In this document: in pieces, positions 1,896-35,522 of the stretch
Position numbering within the stretch: the first letter of the stretch is position 1
Layout of the letters: each line of letters starts with the position of its first letter
Position numbers and translations under genes: made by a program
Virus record (IMG/VR): IMGVR_UViG_3300032308_001111
Coordinates: 1 to 42,440 of that record
DNA length: 42,440 nucleotides
DNA from: a virus
Strand: one strand, 5' to 3'
The notes under the pieces: model-generated
What the model was told of the DNA's origin: nothing
Database searches by the model: none
What the model saw: only the letters and a program-made list of their open reading frames with translations

Positions 1896-3575
1896 GTGAC
1901 TGCAAAAAAAATCTTTAGCATACCAATCAATCCTAAACTTTCGCAAGAAGAGTTTACGGCATTTTATCATTGGCTAGATCAGTATAAAGACTGGATAGCC
2001 GATGTTTATTTTACATCAAGAATAGACCCGTTTAAGCAAGATGCTATGGGCGAGATTATTATGTTTAACCAGGATAAGATTAATCTTATTGAAACTGGAT
2101 TAAACATTCAAAAATATCTTGGAATAAAAGCTTCGGCTACATTCAACAATATTCAAGTACCTCCAACTCAAACAAACTTAGATACGTTTATATTTAATTT
2201 TAAACCACTCTATGATGCTGGCATTCGAGTTGCAACTATCCCTCATACACATTGGATGGCTACTGGCCAAATTAAAGCTGCATTTCCAGAGTTATATGTT
2301 AAGAATACAATCCTAAGAAATGTTAGAAGACCTGCAGAAGTTGTTGCATTAGCACAAGCGGGATTCGATTACATAAATCTTGATAGAGATTTGATGCGCG
2401 ATAGAGATGGATTAGCACGCCTTAAAGAAGCTAAAGATTGGATAAAAATAAATCTTGGAAAAGATATACAATATAGCTTATTAGCAAATGAGGGGTGTTT
2501 GGGTGAATGTCCTATGATGGATGAGCACTTCGCGTATAACAATACTCGCGATGATAATAGCCCCACATATTTTAATTCTGCAATTAGCAGAGTGAGTTGT
2601 CCTAAATGGGATGTAGAAGATCCTGCTGTTTATCTAAAGACAGCAAATTTTTCTCCTTGGAAAAAAGATTGGGAAGAATATTTAGAATTGGGCATCGACG
2701 TATTTAAAATGCATGGTAGAGAAAGTATTAATCGACTAGCAGAGACTATGCGTAAAGTTGAAAGATACGTAGCAAATGAAGAAATATTAGATGACAACTT
2801 CAATAGCTTTATTCACAAAGCTCAACTATCTGGCAAGCCGATTAATGTATGGCGAGAAAAGATAAAAACTTGTAAATTTGATTGCTGGGAATGTCAATAC
2901 TGCGATAAGATCGAAGAGAAAAAAGATACTTATGATTACAGCGATATGACTAAACACGTCGTAGATTGTATTGCTAAGAGCGGTATTCCAAAAGTTAATA
3001 TTAATATTAGCGGATTAACTAGTTCACGAGTACAAACTCTATTAAATTCTTTAGCATCGAAATGCGGTGCATACTTAGAGATTGGTTCATATCTAGGAGC
3101 TACTGCTTCTGCAGTACTATATAACAATCCAATCAAAGCATATTTGATTGATAAGTGGGAAGAACAAATACAACCTGCTAGAGATGACATTCAAACTGAA
3201 GCAAATGACTACGACACATTTGTACATAATATATCTTCATATGTGAAGAATTCTGACGTAAGAATTTTTAAACAAGACATGTTGAGCGTTAACTTACATG
3301 AAATAGATGCTAAGATTGATATGTTTATGTATGATGGTCCGCATGATGCTAAATCTACTGCAGATGCAATCAAATATTATTGGCCAACATTAGCTAGAGA
3401 AGCAGTATTAGTGTTTGATGATGCTAATTGGGAAACGGTTATTGAAGGCGTTAGAAACGGTTTACAAGAAGTAGAAGCACAAGTAGTATATGAAAAGATG
3501 ATATTAAATTCTGAAGAGAATCCACGAGAATGGTGGAATGGATTATATATTTTGGTGATAAGAAAACATGATTAA
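1896..3575 (+). CDS. U32-like Fe-S protein fused to a class I (Methyltransf_24-type) methyltransferase
   Basis: This 559-residue protein starts at GTG after a TAGGATG-rich leader. Residues 1 to about 340 read like the peptidase-U32 / UbiU-UbiV / RNA-hydroxylase superfamily: a barrel-like alternation with INLDRDLMRD and then NEGCLGECPM (Cys201, Cys205), a further Cys235, and a Cys-rich segment with Cys326, 330, 333 and 336. In known U32 proteins such cysteines bind a [4Fe-4S] cluster. Residues about 380-555 look like an SAM-dependent methyltransferase: LEIGSYLGATAS for the glycine-rich loop near residue 395, then DMFMYDGPHD and AVLVFDDANW. Its 3' end overlaps the halogenase gene by 8 bases. 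U32 enzymes hydroxylate tRNA/rRNA or ubiquinone precursors, and O-methylation can follow. A two-step hydroxylase-methylase is therefore an attractive inference, but the substrate is unknown. The methyltransferase call is firmer than the U32 call. Confidence 0.65.
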   Translation: MTAKKIFSIPINPKLSQEEFTAFYHWLDQYKDWIADVYFTSRIDPFKQDAMGEIIMFNQDKINLIETGLNIQKYLGIKASATFNNIQVPPTQTNLDTFIFNFKPLYDAGIRVATIPHTHWMATGQIKAAFPELYVKNTILRNVRRPAEVVALAQAGFDYINLDRDLMRDRDGLARLKEAKDWIKINLGKDIQYSLLANEGCLGECPMMDEHFAYNNTRDDNSPTYFNSAISRVSCPKWDVEDPAVYLKTANFSPWKKDWEEYLELGIDVFKMHGRESINRLAETMRKVERYVANEEILDDNFNSFIHKAQLSGKPINVWREKIKTCKFDCWECQYCDKIEEKKDTYDYSDMTKHVVDCIAKSGIPKVNINISGLTSSRVQTLLNSLASKCGAYLEIGSYLGATASAVLYNNPIKAYLIDKWEEQIQPARDDIQTEANDYDTFVHNISSYVKNSDVRIFKQDMLSVNLHEIDAKIDMFMYDGPHDAKSTADAIKYYWPTLAREAVLVFDDANWETVIEGVRNGLQEVEAQVVYEKMILNSEENPREWWNGLYILVIRKHD

Positions 3576-5103
3576 GAAGATAAAAAATATTGTAATATTT
3601 GGAGGCGGAACTAGCGGTTGGTTAACAGCAGCTTATATGACTAATCGTTTAAACTTTCCATGTAATATTACTCTAATTGAGAGTAAGTCCATGGGACCTA
3701 TCGGCGTTGGAGAAGGTACACAACCTTTTACTTCTCGATTTTTACATGATGCAGGTTTACGACCAGATCAATGGATGAAACCATCTCAAGCTGCATTTAA
3801 ATACGGTGTTTTATTAAGCGGATGGAATAAAGAACCGTATTTCGTAGATAATGATTTCATAGAAAATCATATCATGGGTCCGAACCTTTATGCTCATGAT
3901 TATTTTATTCATAAGACAAACGAAGAGTGGGTAAAATGGCAACCTGCGTGTAGACTTGCTATGGCGAATAAGAGCCCTAAGCTTGGTGGTTACGATCACT
4001 CATTATCGCTTAGAGATTTTAACGATTGGGGAGCCGTACACTTTTCTGCATTTGATATATTAGATACTCTTCACGATCTTATCAAAGATAGGATTACTTA
4101 TTTTGATACAAAAATTACAGATATAAAAAGCAATGGTGAGGGTATTGAATACTTAGTAGATGAACAAGGAAGAAAACATACTGCAGATCTGTTCATTGAC
4201 TGCACAGGATTTGAAGCAAAATTAATTAATAAAGAATTAAAAGTGCCGTTCATTGACATATCATCTATCCTTCCATGTGATAGCGCTGTTGCTATGCCGA
4301 CTCAATTCAAAAATCCAACGGAGGAGTGTCATCCTTATACTAAAGCAACTACTATGACTTCTGGTTGGAGATGGACGATTCCAACATTTAAACAAATTGG
4401 TAATGGTTATGTGTATTCTTCTAAACACATTTCTGCTGAAGATGCAGAAAAAGAGCTAAGAGATACTATCGGTGAATATGATGCTAAAGCTAGGCATTTA
4501 AAAATGCGCTGTGGTTCATCTGAAAAGGTTGCATATAAAAATGTAATAGCAGTTGGTTTATCTGCAGGATTTGTTGAACCTTTAGAAGCAACTGGCATTA
4601 CATTCACTACTAAGATTGTTGAAGCCTTAACAAATGGGTTAAATCATCATAGCGGTATTTGGAATGATACCGTGATGGCTGCATTTAATGGTGCTTATAC
4701 TAATATGGTTGTAGAAATTATTGGATTTGTATGGGCCCATTATCATTATAGCGACAGAGATGATACGCCGTTTTGGAAAGAAATTAGAAGTCAAAAGATT
4801 GAAGATGCTCCTACATACATACAAGAGATGTTTAGTAATTTTTATCCTACATTACATCGAAGATTTTATTTAGATGACACAACTTCTGGCTTTCATACTG
4901 GACATTGGTTTAGCATGTTACACGCCAATGGAGTTTATGATAATGTTGAAAAGCCAAAGCTAAGTGAAAACGAATTAAAATATGCCGAATATTATCTTAA
5001 GACTAAGACGGCAGAAATAGATAATGCCATAGAATATTTCCCAAATCATTATGAATTTTTGAAGGATTGGTATGAGACAACCGATGACACTGTTCAAAGC
5101 TGA
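3568..5103 (+). CDS. Flavin-dependent halogenase, tryptophan-halogenase (PrnA/RebH) family
   Basis: This 511-residue protein is the usual size for the family. The FAD-binding GGGTSGW motif is at residues 12-18 and GVGEGTQP follows near residue 46. A lysine in the AAFKYG segment (Lys78) aligns with the catalytic Lys79 of PrnA/RebH. The diagnostic WxWxIP motif is present as WRWTIP at residues 267-272. FVEPLEATG places Glu340 at the position of the second catalytic residue. All key motifs of an active FADH2-dependent halogenase are therefore intact. Such enzymes chlorinate or brominate indoles, phenols or pyrroles, free or carrier-bound, and need a flavin reductase; none is seen here, so the host may supply it. 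The start overlaps the upstream gene by 8 bases and the end overlaps the next gene by 32. The substrate is unknown. Confidence 0.92.
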   Translation: MIKKIKNIVIFGGGTSGWLTAAYMTNRLNFPCNITLIESKSMGPIGVGEGTQPFTSRFLHDAGLRPDQWMKPSQAAFKYGVLLSGWNKEPYFVDNDFIENHIMGPNLYAHDYFIHKTNEEWVKWQPACRLAMANKSPKLGGYDHSLSLRDFNDWGAVHFSAFDILDTLHDLIKDRITYFDTKITDIKSNGEGIEYLVDEQGRKHTADLFIDCTGFEAKLINKELKVPFIDISSILPCDSAVAMPTQFKNPTEECHPYTKATTMTSGWRWTIPTFKQIGNGYVYSSKHISAEDAEKELRDTIGEYDAKARHLKMRCGSSEKVAYKNVIAVGLSAGFVEPLEATGITFTTKIVEALTNGLNHHSGIWNDTVMAAFNGAYTNMVVEIIGFVWAHYHYSDRDDTPFWKEIRSQKIEDAPTYIQEMFSNFYPTLHRRFYLDDTTSGFHTGHWFSMLHANGVYDNVEKPKLSENELKYAEYYLKTKTAEIDNAIEYFPNHYEFLKDWYETTDDTVQS

Positions 5104-5680
5104 CCTATTTAGTTATGCTAACGTTGGCACGCCCGAACAACGCCAAGAATTAATAGATCGTTTATTGCAAATAAAAGCTTCTGGCGCAAAAGATATAAAT
5201 GATTTAACGAACAATGAAGGGTGTTGGAGATATTCATATCCAATTAAAGACTGCGAATGGTTAAACCAAGTTGTATCAACCATTATTGAAGAAGCATTTG
5301 AATATTACGCAAATGATCCGGCAAGCAGGATTGCTTTACCTTCAGAAGATATGAAAATTGAAGTTAATAGTTGGTGTAATATTAATGAAAAATATGCAAG
5401 AAATGTATATCATTCTCACAAGACCAAAATATTTTCTATAGTATATTATTTACAGGCTACTAATACTGGTAAACTAATCTTGACAAACCCTGCTAATATA
5501 TTAAATGATTGTAGTGATTTTGCTCCATATACTAGAGACTTTTTATTTTTACCAAAAGACGGAGATCTAATATTGTGGCCAGCTTGGATCCCGCATGAAG
5601 TAGAACCCAATATGTCTGATAGGCAAAGAATTAATATAGTGTTCGATGTAGATATCCCGTATGTTTACAAGCCATACTGA
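5072..5680 (+). CDS. Putative 2-oxoglutarate/Fe(II)-dependent oxygenase (TIGR02466-like)
   Basis: This is a 202-residue jelly-roll-type protein. The chosen ATG lies 5 bases after an AAGGA site inside the halogenase gene; an ATG at 5087 is an alternative. It matches phage 2OG-Fe(II) oxygenases of the TIGR02466 type. HSH at residues 114-116 supplies the first metal histidines, with HxH in place of the usual HxD. GDLILWPAWIPHEVEPN supplies His175, and RQRINIVFD supplies Arg186 for binding 2-oxoglutarate. It would hydroxylate an unknown substrate using O2, Fe(II) and 2-oxoglutarate. The overlap with the halogenase gene and the next cupin-type gene suggests a shared pathway or target. Confidence 0.8.
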   Translation: MRQPMTLFKADLFSYANVGTPEQRQELIDRLLQIKASGAKDINDLTNNEGCWRYSYPIKDCEWLNQVVSTIIEEAFEYYANDPASRIALPSEDMKIEVNSWCNINEKYARNVYHSHKTKIFSIVYYLQATNTGKLILTNPANILNDCSDFAPYTRDFLFLPKDGDLILWPAWIPHEVEPNMSDRQRINIVFDVDIPYVYKPY

Positions 5681-6149
5681 AGTATTATTTTCAGCTGAAA
5701 TATCTTATGGAACGATAGATCTTTCTGATAAAACCGTAAATGATTTTACAAAGTGGTTAGAAATACAAAAACTACTTGAAGAAGATGTAAGTGCTGGAAG
5801 CACAACTGTAGATGGTTGGCAATATGCTTTTAAACCTGGAGATATTCAACCATTATGGCATGCAAATATCGTCTCTCAATTTAATTTCCAAGAACAGTGT
5901 CAAAGTAGTTGGATAGTTGACTATGAAATAGGAGGATATCAAACACCTCATTTTCATAGAAATAGTAAATCAACATTGATAGTTAATATCATCGGCAAAG
6001 GTGATTTATCACTATTCGATTCGGATTGGAATGAATCGTCTAGAACTTTAACTCCTGGAGATTGGATATATATTCCAGGTTGGTTGATGCATGCTAGTCA
6101 ACCGTGTGAAGAAAAGCGAAGTGTATTTGTGATTGATTATAAAAAATGA
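5661..6149 (+). CDS. Cupin-fold / second putative Fe(II)-dependent oxygenase
   Basis: This 162-residue protein overlaps the preceding oxygenase gene by 20 bases and the following gene by 4. Residues 83-158 form a compact double-stranded beta-helix pattern: GGYQTPHFHR (His97, His99), a Gly-Asp-Leu-Ser-Leu strand, and PGDWIYIPGWLMHASQP (His144). The H-x-H...H arrangement fits a metal-binding cupin or a small 2OG-Fe(II) oxygenase, and the GDW-IPGW-H layout parallels that of its neighbour. The arginine that binds 2-oxoglutarate is less clear; EEKRSVFVIDY near the C-terminus is a candidate. It could be a catalytic partner or a diverged paralogue. The reaction is unknown. Confidence 0.65.
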   Translation: MFTSHTEVLFSAEISYGTIDLSDKTVNDFTKWLEIQKLLEEDVSAGSTTVDGWQYAFKPGDIQPLWHANIVSQFNFQEQCQSSWIVDYEIGGYQTPHFHRNSKSTLIVNIIGKGDLSLFDSDWNESSRTLTPGDWIYIPGWLMHASQPCEEKRSVFVIDYKK

Positions 6150-6919
6150 AGATTGAATTTTTTTCTAGTATTGAAGGAGTTGCAGAATCTACTCCTATTT
6201 TAGAAGCTAAACATTTTAAACAGTCGTGGTTTGCGTCATCTCGCGATGATTTTGTTAAACGTTTAAATGAAGCCAATGGAGGAACCATTGCTCATGCGCA
6301 TAGATGTCCAGGTATATTTGACTTATATAAAAATGGATTCTTTATTACTGCTTGGTGTGATATAATAATTGAAACCAATGGAGATCCAAACTATTATAAG
6401 TGGACTTTACCTAATGTAACTCTAGCTGAGATGATGGATAAAGCAGAAGATGCTCCTATCGTACAAGATCATTCTTTTAATGGAGTAGCTAAACATATAC
6501 CTATTCCCCCAAACACATTAAGATCTATAATAAAAATTAATACGCCTTGGCATATAGTTGCTCCTAAAGGTGTTAAATTTATGATGCTTCCAGTGCCATA
6601 TTCTGACGACTTTACATTTACACAGTCTACTGGAATATTAGATCCTTCCATATCAGATGCAATTAATTTACAGCTTTATTGGCATAAATTAAATGGTTCA
6701 CACATGATAAAAGCTGGTACACCATTAGCATATATGATACCATTGACAGAGAATAAATATAAGTTTATTTGTAGAGATAAAAATGCTTATGACGATTTAT
6801 GGTTAAGAAAGAAGAAGTTTTTACAGAATTTTACGTTTACAAATAAGCATTCTAAAATGAAAGAAATTTACGTGAAGCATAATGAATCGAAGTGTCCTTT
6901 TCATAGGTGGTTTAAATAA
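6146..6919 (+). CDS. Phage protein of unknown function, DUF6065-like
   Basis: This 257-residue protein overlaps both neighbours (ATGA at the 5' end, TAATG at the 3' end), so it belongs to the oxygenase operon. The layout recalls DUF6065-like proteins seen in marine phages: an N-terminal CPGIFDLYKNGF segment, a central INTPWHIVAPKGVKFMMLP segment, ILDPSISDAINLQLYW, and an AGTPLAYMIPL strand. It ends in KCPFHRWFK, which could bind metal. There is no membrane segment or known catalytic motif. Proteins of this kind often sit beside hydroxylase genes, so a role in the same modification pathway is plausible. The family assignment is from memory and uncertain. Confidence 0.6.
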   Translation: MKIEFFSSIEGVAESTPILEAKHFKQSWFASSRDDFVKRLNEANGGTIAHAHRCPGIFDLYKNGFFITAWCDIIIETNGDPNYYKWTLPNVTLAEMMDKAEDAPIVQDHSFNGVAKHIPIPPNTLRSIIKINTPWHIVAPKGVKFMMLPVPYSDDFTFTQSTGILDPSISDAINLQLYWHKLNGSHMIKAGTPLAYMIPLTENKYKFICRDKNAYDDLWLRKKKFLQNFTFTNKHSKMKEIYVKHNESKCPFHRWFK

Positions 6920-7269
6920 TGACAATTTATCAAACATTAATCGCATGTTTTATAACGTGCGTTTTACTTTTTATAGTTTATAGACACACTGGGTTTATAG
7001 CTATAAAAGACTGCTATGCGATGTGGTTCACTAGAAAGTATTGGACCAATTATAACATAGTAGAGGCTCTTAGTTGGGCCACAAAGGCGATCATCATCGT
7101 CCCAGGTTTAATCTTTGGGATTCAAATTTGGTGGTTATATTTCTTAACGTTATTGACAAGTCTTACATTGATTTGGGCAAGCAATAAGAAACTATTACCT
7201 ACCTTAGTTGCATTCAATAGTCTTTGGACTTGGATTAGCGTGATGGTTATAATTAAAAACGTAGTTTAA
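6919..7269 (+). CDS. Small integral membrane protein, about four helices
   Basis: This 116-residue, very hydrophobic protein starts at the TAATG junction with the previous gene. Hydrophobic stretches lie at about residues 5-22, 50-68, 70-88 and 92-113, separated by short charged loops (FTRKYW, ASNKK). No family is recognised. It ends 10 bases before the DUF401-like permease gene and sits in the same transcription unit. It could be a small subunit or partner of that permease, but position is the only evidence. A holin is unlikely given four predicted spans and the location. Confidence 0.7.
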   Translation: MTIYQTLIACFITCVLLFIVYRHTGFIAIKDCYAMWFTRKYWTNYNIVEALSWATKAIIIVPGLIFGIQIWWLYFLTLLTSLTLIWASNKKLLPTLVAFNSLWTWISVMVIIKNVV

Positions 7270-7279
7270 GAGGTAAATC

Positions 7280-8320
7280 ATGGACTTTGTATTTGATGTT
7301 CTATTAAAGAACATATCATACCTCTGGATGATATTCTTCATCATGATCACTGCTGGATTAGCAAAAGAGCATAACCTTTTTGTCCCAGCTTTTGCATATG
7401 TAAGAAACACTTTCAGAAGTAACAAGTTTGTTGTTGTACTCCTAAGCGCAATCGGAGGTATTCTCCCTATCGAAGGTAGAGTTACTGTATCTGCTGGTTT
7501 ATTAGATACCGTAGCACCTAAGGAAGGTCATGGTCGAGAAAAGTTGGGGATTGTTGATTATCTAGCGACACACCATTATTATTTTTGGAGTCCGCTAGAA
7601 AAAACAGTTATCTTACCTATCGCCGCATTTGGTCTAACTTATACCGCTTGGTTGGGAATGGTTGCGCCGTTGTTGATTGTTAGTTTGGCTTTCATCACTT
7701 GGTATATTTGGTATCAGGTTCATGAAGAACAAATTACAATTGCTCCAGGAAACTTTAAGCTTTCTGCCGTATTACGAAATGTCATACCGATGTTTATAGC
7801 TATTGGTATGTACATCTATAATTCAGCGTGGATGGTTGGATGTTTTGGTTTCTTGACTTTATATTATATGTTAATAACCCAAGAATGGAATTTTAAGAAG
7901 TTGTTAAATTACATTCGATGGGATGTGCTAATAATAGTTGGTATTGTCATCATGCTAGGAAACTGGCTGAAGACATATGACGGTCAATTTCAAGAGATAA
8001 TTAAATCTAGTGTACTCAATCCTGAAGTATTCACTGGAATGTTACTTATTTCTATAATTGGCTTTGTAATTAGTTTCTTAATGGGTAGTAGCGGAAAGTT
8101 TATAGCGATCGCCGTATTAATGGCTCAAGTATTTGGTATTGAGTATTTCTTATGGTTTTTTGCAGTAGATTTTTGTGGTTACCTATTAAGTCCTACTCAT
8201 AAGTGTGTGATGGTGGGTCACAAGTATTTTAATACTCCACTCGGAATATACTATAAAGCTTTAGGAACTTGGGGACTATTACTATTAACTACAGCAGGCA
8301 TAGTAACATTTATCTTATAA
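7280..8320 (+). CDS. DUF401-like multi-spanning membrane permease
   Basis: This 346-residue protein has roughly nine or ten hydrophobic segments and few charges between them. A GGILPIEGRVTVSAGLLDT loop in the N-terminal half and CGYLLSPTHKCVMVGHKYF near the C-terminus resemble the two conserved polar loops of the DUF401 family, which is placed, as I recall, in the ion-transporter superfamily. That two-fold layout suggests an inner-membrane transporter for an organic anion or ion; the substrate is unknown. A ribosome site (AGAGGT) precedes the ATG. The gene is followed by a hairpin and then the TonB-dependent receptor gene, so outer- and inner-membrane transport genes are adjacent. Permeases are very unusual in phage genomes. 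Confidence 0.7.
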   Translation: MDFVFDVLLKNISYLWMIFFIMITAGLAKEHNLFVPAFAYVRNTFRSNKFVVVLLSAIGGILPIEGRVTVSAGLLDTVAPKEGHGREKLGIVDYLATHHYYFWSPLEKTVILPIAAFGLTYTAWLGMVAPLLIVSLAFITWYIWYQVHEEQITIAPGNFKLSAVLRNVIPMFIAIGMYIYNSAWMVGCFGFLTLYYMLITQEWNFKKLLNYIRWDVLIIVGIVIMLGNWLKTYDGQFQEIIKSSVLNPEVFTGMLLISIIGFVISFLMGSSGKFIAIAVLMAQVFGIEYFLWFFAVDFCGYLLSPTHKCVMVGHKYFNTPLGIYYKALGTWGLLLLTTAGIVTFIL

Positions 8321-8331
8321 AATAGCATTGC

Positions 8332-8360
8332 GAACGGTTGGGATAGACCGACCGTTCTTT
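8332..8360 (+). terminator. Hairpin between permease and TonB-receptor genes
   Basis: A 10-bp stem (8332-8341 with 8348-8357, including one G-T pair) has a 6-base loop and is followed by only TTTAA. The T-run is short, so it may be a weak terminator or attenuator, or an mRNA-stability element separating expression of the permease and the receptor. Confidence 0.55.
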
Positions 8361-8382: not shown

Positions 8383-10149
8383 ATGAAAAAGGCATTTATT
8401 GCCGCAGTTGTTGGTATGACTGCGGCAATTTCTCATGCAGAAAATAACAAAGAAGATCTTCTGCAATTAGCACCAGTTATTGTAACCACAACAGGTTATA
8501 CTAACTATCAAGTTCAAAGACAAGAAAGACCAGAAGTATACAATCAATCGGCGCATATCCAGGAAACTGCTCCAGGATTAAAAAGCCCATACATTGGTGC
8601 ATTTACTGGTAATCAAGTAGCACAGACAGTTGACGGAATTAAGTTTAGTAATAGCTTATTCCGTACAGGACCTAATCAATATTATAGTTGGATTCCAGAT
8701 TCTTTTGTACAACAAATTTCTGTTTCTGATGGTGGTAATATTGGTGGTACTATCAACCGCAATCTAGGTATTGCACCAAGTCATGTAGGTGCATCATATA
8801 ATAGTTCTTTAGGGTTTACTGAAACTGCTTCTTATAAAGAAGGTAAGTTTGGTTTTGCTTTAAGCAATATAGATTTTGGCAACGTGAAAACTGCTGATGG
8901 TAGAATTCCAAACTCTTCATATAACCAACAAGCCGCTATGTTTCAAGCAGATTGGTCAGATACTCAAAAGACTACATTTATGATGACACATAGTGGTGAT
9001 CTAAATCGTACTGATAAATGGAATGGAGGATATCGCTCTACTGGATATCAAGCTCCGTCCATCTACACGTGGGATTCACAAGATTATACATTATTGAAAC
9101 ATGAAGCAAGATTCAATAATTTTAAGCTTGCTGCAGCGTATCAAAACTTTGAAGAAAAGATCACTGATGGTACAAAACCAATTCATTCAAACGTTGATTC
9201 ATATTCGATTAATGGTGAATACTTCTTAAAAAATGGATTCAGTTTATATTCTACAAACAATCTAGAACAAATCATGTATGATAACGGCGTTGCTGTTAGT
9301 TCTTCAAATCCTATTAAGGTTGATAAGGATACTTGGGGAACGTATAAACAAGGCGTTCGTTGGTATGGTGATGTTGGACCGTTAGATGTTATTGCTTCAG
9401 TTGGTTACAAAGAGGTTAAAGCAGGAAATACTCGCTTTGATAATCCAGAAGGTTCATTGATTGTTGGTAAGAACGGATATTTTGCATCGTATGATAGAAG
9501 TACTAATACTCCTTCTTATTTTAGTTTAAGACAATCAATTACTTCAGGCAGAGGTGAACAGTTAGCTAATTCTGGTTTAAAGGAAGAATACGCTGATACA
9601 TTTCGTTTAGGTTATAAAACAAATGGGTTATACTTTGATGTTTATAAAAAGCATCTAAGTGATGCCATTCAAACTAGGACTGTTAGCACAAGTCCTTATG
9701 TGTATCAACCATATAACGGCGGAACCATAGATGTATATGGTAGCACATTTGGTTATAAAAATAAATCTGTCATGAATAGTAAGTGGGGGATTGATACGCG
9801 GTTAGAGTATGCTTATGGTGAAAGCAATCCTCCAACCGGAGTAACTCAACCCACCAATAAAACGACTCCATTCATAGCTTATGCAAAAGTAAACTATGAT
9901 AAAGCGTGGATTGAGTATATGGGACAGACTAAACAAAATCGACTATCTACTGATGATTTAGCAGATGTTCGTGTATATGGTCATAATGGTGGTTATAGCG
10001 TGTTTAATATAGGTTATACTGATAGCTATAAAAAATTAGACTATACCGTTACTTTAGTTAATGCATTTGATAACGGAGGCCGTGTTTTAGGTTCATCAGT
10101 AGATGTTCCTGCACGAGGAGTATTTTTATCAGGCAAGTATAATTTCTAA
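8383..10149 (+). CDS. TonB-dependent outer-membrane receptor
   Basis: This 588-residue protein carries a signal peptide: KK, a hydrophobic stretch to residue 16, then SHA with probable cleavage after Ala19. LAPVIVTTTGY at about residues 29-39 resembles the region after a TonB box. The plug domain has VDGIKFSN (Asp84), SLFRTGPNQYYSW and ISVSDGGNIGGTIN, like haem/siderophore/vitamin receptors. From about residue 150 the sequence is made of alternating Tyr/Phe/Trp-rich strands with Asn-rich loops, and it ends in KYNF with the terminal Phe of outer-membrane barrels. It is somewhat short for the family but looks intact. An AGGG ribosome site precedes the ATG. Such receptors import iron chelates, B12 or other ligands using host TonB-ExbBD. 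A receptor gene in a lytic-phage genome is very unusual; nutrient capture, receptor replacement or masking are possible roles. The ligand is unknown. Confidence 0.88.
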   Translation: MKKAFIAAVVGMTAAISHAENNKEDLLQLAPVIVTTTGYTNYQVQRQERPEVYNQSAHIQETAPGLKSPYIGAFTGNQVAQTVDGIKFSNSLFRTGPNQYYSWIPDSFVQQISVSDGGNIGGTINRNLGIAPSHVGASYNSSLGFTETASYKEGKFGFALSNIDFGNVKTADGRIPNSSYNQQAAMFQADWSDTQKTTFMMTHSGDLNRTDKWNGGYRSTGYQAPSIYTWDSQDYTLLKHEARFNNFKLAAAYQNFEEKITDGTKPIHSNVDSYSINGEYFLKNGFSLYSTNNLEQIMYDNGVAVSSSNPIKVDKDTWGTYKQGVRWYGDVGPLDVIASVGYKEVKAGNTRFDNPEGSLIVGKNGYFASYDRSTNTPSYFSLRQSITSGRGEQLANSGLKEEYADTFRLGYKTNGLYFDVYKKHLSDAIQTRTVSTSPYVYQPYNGGTIDVYGSTFGYKNKSVMNSKWGIDTRLEYAYGESNPPTGVTQPTNKTTPFIAYAKVNYDKAWIEYMGQTKQNRLSTDDLADVRVYGHNGGYSVFNIGYTDSYKKLDYTVTLVNAFDNGGRVLGSSVDVPARGVFLSGKYNF

Positions 10150-10170: not shown

Positions 10171-10200
10171 AATGGGGATCTTAATGATCCCCATTTTTTT
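10171..10200 (+). terminator. Strong rho-independent terminator after TonB receptor
   Basis: A perfect 10-bp stem (AATGGGGATC, 10171-10180, with 10186-10195), a TTAAT loop and a run of T to 10200. It closes the accessory island just before the late virion genes. Confidence 0.92.
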
Positions 10201-10207
10201 ATAAATA
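10200..10207 (+). promoter_or_regulatory. T4-type late promoter (TATAAATA) upstream of dps
   Basis: An exact match to the T4 late -10 element TATAAATA lies in the gap, 36 bases before the dps ATG and directly after a terminator. Gp55, the late sigma factor that reads this element in T4, is encoded at 29233. It probably drives dps, gp13, gp14 and downstream genes. Confidence 0.75.
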
Positions 10208-10243: not shown

Positions 10244-10681
10244 ATGAATAAGCTAGTTGAACAACTCCGCAAAGTCCTAACGTCTAACTTTGCTCTTTAC
10301 CTAAAAACCCACATGTTCCATTGGAACGTAGAGGGCCCAAACTTCAGCGATTACCACGCATTCTTTGCCACAGTATATGAAGATTTGTTTGATCAATCAG
10401 ATGTTCTTGCAGAGTTTATTAGACAATTGGGCGAAAAAGCTCCAGGTTCTTTATCAGTCTATGCTCAACAAAGCTTGATTAAAGATGAAGAAGGTTTCCC
10501 ATCAGCAACTGAAATGTTTGAAAAGCTTTTAGCTGATACTCAAACTATGTTAACGCTTTATCAACAATTATACGATGCAGCTGAAGAGGTTAATGAGCAC
10601 CAAATTTCAAACTATGCAGCTGATCGCTTAGCTGCTCATAAGAAAACCGCATGGATGGTTCGTTCTATCCTAAAAAAATAA
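10244..10681 (+). CDS. dps: Dps-like ferritin-family DNA-protection protein
   Basis: This 145-residue four-helix protein has the Dps signature HMFHWNVEGPNF. His26, His38, Asp53 and Glu57 align with the inter-subunit ferroxidase ligands of Dps. The position of the other conserved Asp (H-x11-H-x3-D) is Ala42, so the iron site is altered. Dps dodecamers bind DNA, oxidise Fe(II) with peroxide and store ferric iron. The gene is read from a TATAAATA late promoter and stands 10 bases before gp13, so it is made with virion proteins; protection of phage DNA or incorporation into particles are possibilities. Related proteins occur in marine T4-like phages. Confidence 0.88.
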   Translation: MNKLVEQLRKVLTSNFALYLKTHMFHWNVEGPNFSDYHAFFATVYEDLFDQSDVLAEFIRQLGEKAPGSLSVYAQQSLIKDEEGFPSATEMFEKLLADTQTMLTLYQQLYDAAEEVNEHQISNYAADRLAAHKKTAWMVRSILKK

Positions 10682-35485: not shown

Positions 35486-35522
35486 TGTAGTTTTATTATG
35501 TTAAAAGTGAAAGGTGTCCAGT

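Follow-up and report, generated by a model that had tools for sequence, protein, structure and literature searches.

Most of the nutrient genes so far known from phages work in the periplasm, at the inner membrane or in the cytoplasm. The phosphorus AMGs catalogued from phages (pstS, phoA, phoD, ugpQ, pit, and yjbB), which are thought to raise the phosphorus supply, are periplasmic, inner-membrane, enzymatic or regulatory genes, and the word “TonB” does not occur in the main text of the catalogue (PMC10987575). For the outer membrane, a phage-encoded SusC-type TonB-dependent receptor (TBDR) has been reported from the marine megaphage Mar_Mega_1 and proposed to take up nutrients during infection (PMC9723777). 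On the cellular side, TBDTs and PusCD systems of Flavobacterium are induced by depletion of Pi and co-located with phosphatases, and tie TonB-dependent outer-membrane transport to phosphorus scavenging (PMC8115612). A phrase search of the literature for phage-encoded TBDRs found none among open-licence papers.

Here we analyzed a 42,440-nucleotide stretch of viral DNA (IMG/VR record IMGVR_UViG_3300032308_001111, positions 1 to 42,440; hereafter the window), in which an earlier note made from the letters alone had reported a complete TBDR gene of a T4-like phage. Like the receptor of Mar_Mega_1 it is phage-encoded and a candidate for nutrient uptake in infection, whereas the latter is of the SusC type and the passage describing it makes no mention of an inner-membrane partner. 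The window's receptor gene is flanked by genes for a DUF401 permease and a Dps-like protein, and no SusD-like lipoprotein gene lies alongside it. The BFVD library of viral structures yielded one SusC-type match (“TonB-dependent receptor SusC [uncultured marine phage]”, 805 aa) with 13% identity over the structural alignment. The Flavobacterium systems are likened to the receptor for their TonB-dependent transport and its tie to phosphatases, and differ in being cellular and Pi-depletion-induced. Both TBDR folds and AMGs of phages are known in kind; what look new are the phage receptors with a reduced plug and their DUF401 partner described below.

The Receptor Gene and Its Predicted Structure

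The receptor gene corresponds exactly to an intact open reading frame of 588 codons with an ATG start (Table 1). The receptor protein on its own matched no Pfam, PHROG or NCBIfam model at threshold: the Pfam Plug model reached only E = 0.05, no NCBIfam model including TonB-hemin (TIGR01785), TonB-siderophor (TIGR01783), and BtuB (TIGR01779) matched up to E = 1, and a phmmer search of the single protein against the PDB sequences was without a match. Its relatives match those NCBIfam TBDR models below the cut-off only. The family assignment, which the earlier note had called firm, was thus not firm from the start as far as standard models go, and it is only through remote homologs and structure prediction that the gene can firmly be classed as a complete TBDR.

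Structure prediction with AlphaFold2 from a 54-row alignment of phage and cellular relatives gave a model with a pLDDT of 88.3 and a pTM of 0.86 (an earlier model built from five near-identical sequences had a pLDDT of 25 and was discarded). In this model the N-terminus is disordered at residues 11–41, the plug is ordered at residues 45–128 (block pLDDT mostly >85) and aligns with the plug-containing Cir and BtuB, and barrel strands extend from residue 134 to 587, the count of 22 strands taking 416–426/429–436 and 439–445/448–460 each as one bulged strand. The plug and 22-strand barrel on which the earlier note had made its assignment depend are accordingly both present in the model, and Foldseek comparison to the PDB retrieved TBDRs, with Cir as the best match (3.7e-22) along with ChuA, BtuB, ShuA, and ZnuD (TM-scores about 0.7); FrpB and PqqU were also among the matches. 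Fold similarity among TBDRs does not identify the substrate. The profile of the 54-row alignment matched PhuR (1.3e-77) and Cir (3.1e-56) in the PDB, which shows that the wider set consists of TBDRs, since the alignment includes cellular ones; a phage-only profile still matched PhuR at 1.5e-6, and the Pfam barrel model matches four of the eight members of that profile (best 9.1e-13).

Sequence motifs agree with the earlier description of a signal peptide, a plug with DGI and GGTIN segments, and a barrel ending in Phe: the N-terminus is signal-peptide-like, DGI, FRTGPNQY, and GGTIN were all found in the plug, and the C-terminal residue is Phe. An N-terminal segment resembling MKKAFIAAVVGMTAAISHA was also recognized by inspection in the aligned homologs. 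At the position of the TonB-box-like segment homologs have PVTVTAT, PVVVSVT, PVVVTAT or EVVVVGG, and the segment is degenerate in some (L015, L133).

Table 1. Positions of the receptor gene, its predicted parts, and neighboring features in the window.
Feature	Positions	Strand	Basis or remark
Upstream cassette: flavin halogenase, 2OG-Fe(II) oxygenase, cupin-like protein, phrog_7084, 116-aa membrane protein	3568..7269	+	Domain/PHROG matches
DUF401/TIGR00529-type inner-membrane permease, 346 aa, proposed receptor partner	7280..8320	+	PF04165, 1.9e-9
Hairpin, 10 bp, between permease and receptor	8332..8357	+	z -5.3 in the window
TonB-dependent receptor (TBDR), 588 aa, reduced-plug phage family	8383..10149	+	ORF, AlphaFold2, Foldseek, homologs, selection
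Signal-peptide-like segment, residues 1–19, MKKAFIAAVVGMTAAISHA	8383..8439	+	By inspection; predicted only; helix with low confidence in the model
TonB-box-like segment PVIVTTT, residues 31–37	8473..8493	+	Homologs; disordered in the model, as a TonB box should be
Plug domain, residues 45–128, without RGP..YGSDA loop	8515..8766	+	Model; motif count
Family signature FRTGPNQYYSW, residues 93–103	8659..8691	+	FRxGPNQY invariant in two homolog alignments; signature scans
22-strand beta-barrel ending in Phe588, residues 134–588	8782..10146	+	AlphaFold2 model
Intrinsic terminator after receptor	10171..10202	+	10-bp stem at 10171–10195 plus T-run; also in receptor-less alleles
TATAAATA, T4-type late-promoter-like site before the Dps gene	10200..10207	+	Sequence match only
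Dps/ferritin-like protein	10244..10681	+	PF00210, 9.3e-27

Phage Context of the Locus

The genes to the right of the receptor encode neck, terminase, sheath, portal, and capsid proteins of the T4-like type, in agreement with the phage origin that had been claimed. The capsid protein is 58–64% identical to those of phages of SAR11, Methylophilales, Stenotrophomonas, and Synechococcus, which is too distant for a host to be called. A scan of viral sequences with the receptor protein retrieved four IMG/VR contigs with receptors 100, 95, 89, and 83% identical to the query, on which the neighboring genes are those of the window wherever the contig covers them. The receptor is under purifying selection (dN/dS 0.07–0.14 among the window, L002, L003, and L007). 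These independent syntenic contigs and the purifying selection exclude a misassembly of phage and host contigs, which the earlier note had named among the things that would overturn its reading.

The strong terminator noted 3′ of the receptor was confirmed. The hairpin between permease and receptor may be a terminator, an mRNA stabilizer or a cassette border; L002 and L003 have a hairpin of the same shape whose stem differs in sequence. The upstream cassette is kept in L002, L003, and L135–L141 and is missing around most other receptors of the family, and two halogenase-like ORFs occur at four other DUF401 loci (L178, L179, L184, L210). Further upstream (1896–3575) lies a gene for a 559-aa protein that ends in a methyltransferase domain (PF13578; phrog_1458). 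This protein matches two separate adjacent genes in the L115–L134 phages and therefore appears to be a fused version in the window. An ATPase-like gene at 35514–36680 matches phrog_249, labeled porphyrin biosynthesis.

Distribution and Phylogeny of the Receptor Family

A scan of viral contigs in IMG/VR with the FRxGPNQY signature gave 33 matches, 31 of them relatives of the receptor, and the family is present on more than 30 IMG/VR contigs. Isolated phages (INPHARED, 50,697 records) searched by tblastn with the receptor gave no match, and as far as these collections go the family is therefore known from metagenomic viruses only. The statement that lytic phages rarely carry such receptors thus holds for sequenced isolates, to be set against the IMG/VR contigs just counted. 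Viral contigs are fragments, and several of the counts given here include related sequences.

In a whole-genome scan 503 cellular relatives carry the signature, and only two of them have strong full-length similarity to the receptor: those of Sulfurimonas MAG313 (L022; E = 6e-54) and of a Sulfuricurvum bin (L023; E = 2e-52), the next match being at 1e-17. These two are 27–29% identical to the receptor and relatives from Bacteroidota about 20–23%; among 298 Campylobacterota genomes searched, one contains the receptor. The maximum likelihood tree unites 18 phage sequences, L022, and L023 in one group with 100/100 support against 22 other cellular receptors. Monophyly of the phage sequences was rejected (p-AU 0.0175), because both Campylobacterota members nest among phages, and receptor genes have therefore probably moved between phages and cells.

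The RGP..YGSDA plug loop is, by simple pattern match, absent from all 21 members of the phage family and present in 68 of the 69 other (cellular) relatives, and the phage family has a shorter segment separating the TonB box from the plug core. Owing to the missing loop the family was filed as a sister to the cellular FRxGPNQY subfamily; it is a mostly viral TBDR family with a reduced plug. Cellular FRxGPNQY receptors (Bacteroidota, Planctomycetota, Acidobacteriota, and Myxococcota) share with it the plug signature, full-length homology, and a C-terminal GS.V...R pattern but differ in having the loop and a longer N-terminal plug, and a 100/100 branch lies between. The mini-TBDRs of Sulfurimonas and Sulfuricurvum resemble the phage receptors in clade, shortened plug, and GPNQYFS motif but are cellular, with adjoining phosphatase genes and, in Sulfurimonas, also ExbB/ExbD/TonB.

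Pairing with DUF401 and Exchange of the Outer-Membrane Gene

The earlier note had overlooked both the DUF401 gene upstream of the receptor and the exchangeable nature of the receptor gene. The permease matches PF04165 with 37.8 bits (gathering cut-off 24) and TIGR00529 below its cut-off, and has a dN/dS of 0.06–0.10. Receptor and DUF401 genes adjoin each other directly in 24 of the 31 viral loci, in both gene orders and with gaps from -20 to +110 bp; these 24 loci represent about five receptor clusters, mutually at most about 50% identical, and are not independent. DUF401 comes first in the relatives of the window, L007, L015, L133, and L134, and the receptor comes first in L115–L131, with gaps of one to two bases or 4-base overlaps (the latter in the L123–L131 group). 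No DUF401 gene lies beside the receptor in the remaining seven family loci, one of which is ended by a contig edge. Three divergent TBDR records, one of a jumbo phage (281 kb) and two of low GC, have a non-adjacent DUF401 gene.

IMG/VR contains at least 560 confirmed DUF401 matches, and a recognizable relative was found in nine of the 50,697 records of isolated phages, all of them cyanophages. No solved relative was found in the PDB, and a literature search on DUF401 revealed no known substrate or role. In aligned phage DUF401 proteins four basic residues (R67, K108, K273, and K308) are invariant and belong to two motif pairs of similar placement (GR/SPLEK and SSGK/SPTHK); the sequence suggests that they would suit an anion of any kind.

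To follow the permease beyond the receptor family, we used the 80 DUF401 loci closest to that of the window, which are not a random sample. In 39 of the 78 other DUF401 loci, a gene directly adjoining DUF401 belongs to one of four further outer-membrane families: a 182–240-aa barrel in 26, a barrel of about 290 aa in nine, a 717-aa siderophore-type TBDR in three, and a TorF-like porin in one. Conversely, the same contigs contain 40 members of the four families, and 39 adjoin DUF401. A control independent of the families gave the same picture, a signal-peptide pattern combined with an OMP-like C-terminus being found in 32 of 109 DUF401-adjacent genes vs. three of 890 other genes on the same contigs; the contrast is large, and its Fisher value overstates the significance as the loci are related.

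Exchange at a single site is seen directly in close relatives. Two loci (L135, L136) have a 99% identical DUF401, the same halogenase cassette upstream, and Dps downstream, with the barrel of about 290 aa in the place of the receptor. Four others (L177, L193, L197, L206) have no outer-membrane gene at the site and keep the terminator and the late-promoter-like site; in the last three of them DUF401 leads straight into a near-identical GGGG..CCCC terminator followed by the TATAAATA site. Since receptor-less alleles keep both elements, the terminator after the receptor is read as the end of the operon, with Dps behind its own late-promoter-like site. The receptor gene is hence an outer-membrane cassette that closes a permease operon and is exchangeable, and Dps is a fixed neighbor of the site and not specific to the receptor, being present with the receptor, with the OMP of about 290 aa or at the empty site.

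Putative Function and Substrate

We propose that two adjoining phage genes would yield a working TonB-dependent transporter in the outer membrane and a DUF401 permease in the inner membrane. Driven by the TonB-ExbB-ExbD of the host, the receptor would form with the permease an extra route across both membranes of the infected Gram-negative cell, by which a scarce anionic nutrient could enter during infection. We consider it probable on balance that the phage carries the two as an import module spanning both membranes, of which the outer-membrane part is exchangeable. Observed are the TBDR fold, conservation, purifying selection, the TonB-box-like N-terminus, the pairing with DUF401, the cassette exchange, and the phosphorus-gene neighborhoods around the closest cellular receptors; from these we infer expression, outer-membrane insertion, import direction, joint action, and substrate. 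If true, an outer-membrane gate brought by a phage together with an inner-membrane partner would change the view of what limits infection, and the DUF401 permease would gain a likely function class in solute transport from the outer to the inner membrane. Receptor and permease are a directly testable gene pair.

Clues to the substrate come from the genes around cellular relatives. The Sulfurimonas gene directly follows a PhoX gene and is near genes for DUF3450, two ExbB-like proteins, ExbD, TonB, and a TPR protein, and genes for a PF04185 phosphoesterase and PhoD come after the Sulfuricurvum gene. A PF04185-type protein is beside or near nine of 13 Bacteroidota relatives (Pfam-confirmed on five proteins), and some have a purple acid phosphatase and GDPD (L097) or PhnZ (L063; TIGR03276 5.6e-62, PDB PhnZ 1.9e-48). 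The neighborhoods in Planctomycetota, Acidobacteriota, and Myxococcota gave no common substrate hint when compared by eye, and PstS (PF12849) was not found in 17 TBDR phage records. DUF401 was likewise not found in the Campylobacterota genomes searched, which included that of Sulfurimonas, nor in the genomes of four other relatives, and the link to phosphorus is therefore drawn from the receptor and not from its partner. Because both closest cellular relatives and most of those from Bacteroidota adjoin phosphatase or phosphonate genes, we tentatively favor phosphate or an organophosphorus compound as the likeliest single kind of substrate, at somewhat less than even chances. The substrates suggested before (iron, haem, and B12) are not supported over phosphorus, given the PhoX, PhoD, phosphoesterase, purple acid phosphatase, GDPD, and PhnZ genes that adjoin the nearest cellular relatives.

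Import of iron or haem, by which a ferric chelate or haem would serve the infected cell, the Fe(II)/2OG oxygenases and Dps of the phage or the iron of the virion, draws on the Dps-like gene downstream and the 2OG-Fe(II) oxygenase upstream, on the siderophore-receptor similarity of the 717-aa DUF401-paired TBDR of other phages (TIGR01783, 2.4e-58), on TonB-hemin being the best, although sub-cut-off, NCBIfam match of the Bacteroidota relatives, and on ChuA, ShuA, and FrpB being among the best folds. The argument from Dps is weakened, however, because loci in which the receptor is replaced or missing still have Dps; more distant receptors of the family have no Dps beside them, and phosphatases adjoin the nearest cellular relatives, so that we regard iron or haem as rather unlikely, though a serious rival. 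Some other solute taking the same two-membrane route (an anionic sugar, cobalamin, PQQ or a metal) is unlikely too: the invariant basic residues of the phage DUF401 proteins fit any anion, KdgM, of an anionic oligosaccharide porin family, is matched by three of the 29 small OMP partners, and BtuB, PqqU, and ZnuD are among the folds, but no neighboring gene in phages or cells speaks for such a solute and the cellular neighborhoods point to phosphorus.

Superinfection exclusion, in which the phage OMP would mask, replace or compete with the receptor of other phages as the Lc porin of the lambdoid phage PA-2 does by precedent, was likewise among the roles suggested before. Outer-membrane partners that differ between close phages, such as L135 with its near-identical DUF401, are what phage–phage conflict predicts, yet this role would explain neither why divergent phages keep the gene linked to an inner-membrane permease nor the retained TonB-box-like segment and ordered plug, and we hold it to be improbable. 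Feeding of the infected cell, also proposed in the earlier note, is the best fit among these roles, given that an inner-membrane permease accompanies the receptor. A recent passenger from a host or an assembly artifact, of no function for the phage, would find its one support in the missing matches to standard models; with syntenic independent contigs, intact ORFs, purifying selection, and a 20-member clade that is almost all viral on a fully supported branch, its probability is negligible and it is already refuted for practical purposes.

Beyond the two-membrane import module of the window, we give about even odds to the view that many phages infecting Gram-negative bacteria carry a compact module of DUF401 and an interchangeable outer-membrane gate, a class of nutrient acquisition so far undescribed in which the virus would supply both membrane steps. 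The gates of this wider module would comprise the reduced-plug TBDR, the siderophore-type TBDR, the TorF-like porin, the small barrel, and the plugless barrel of about 290 aa with a TonB-box-like tail. The siderophore-type receptor (L180:8176–10329, L181, and L191) is a second, distinct phage TBDR beside DUF401 and has a full plug. The barrel partner of about 290 aa (L135:4327–5196, L137:11101–11967, L160:9202–9999) is unusual in combining a TonB-box-like start (PPVVVTD, DTFTVTG) with a length that would not accommodate both a plug and a 22-strand barrel.
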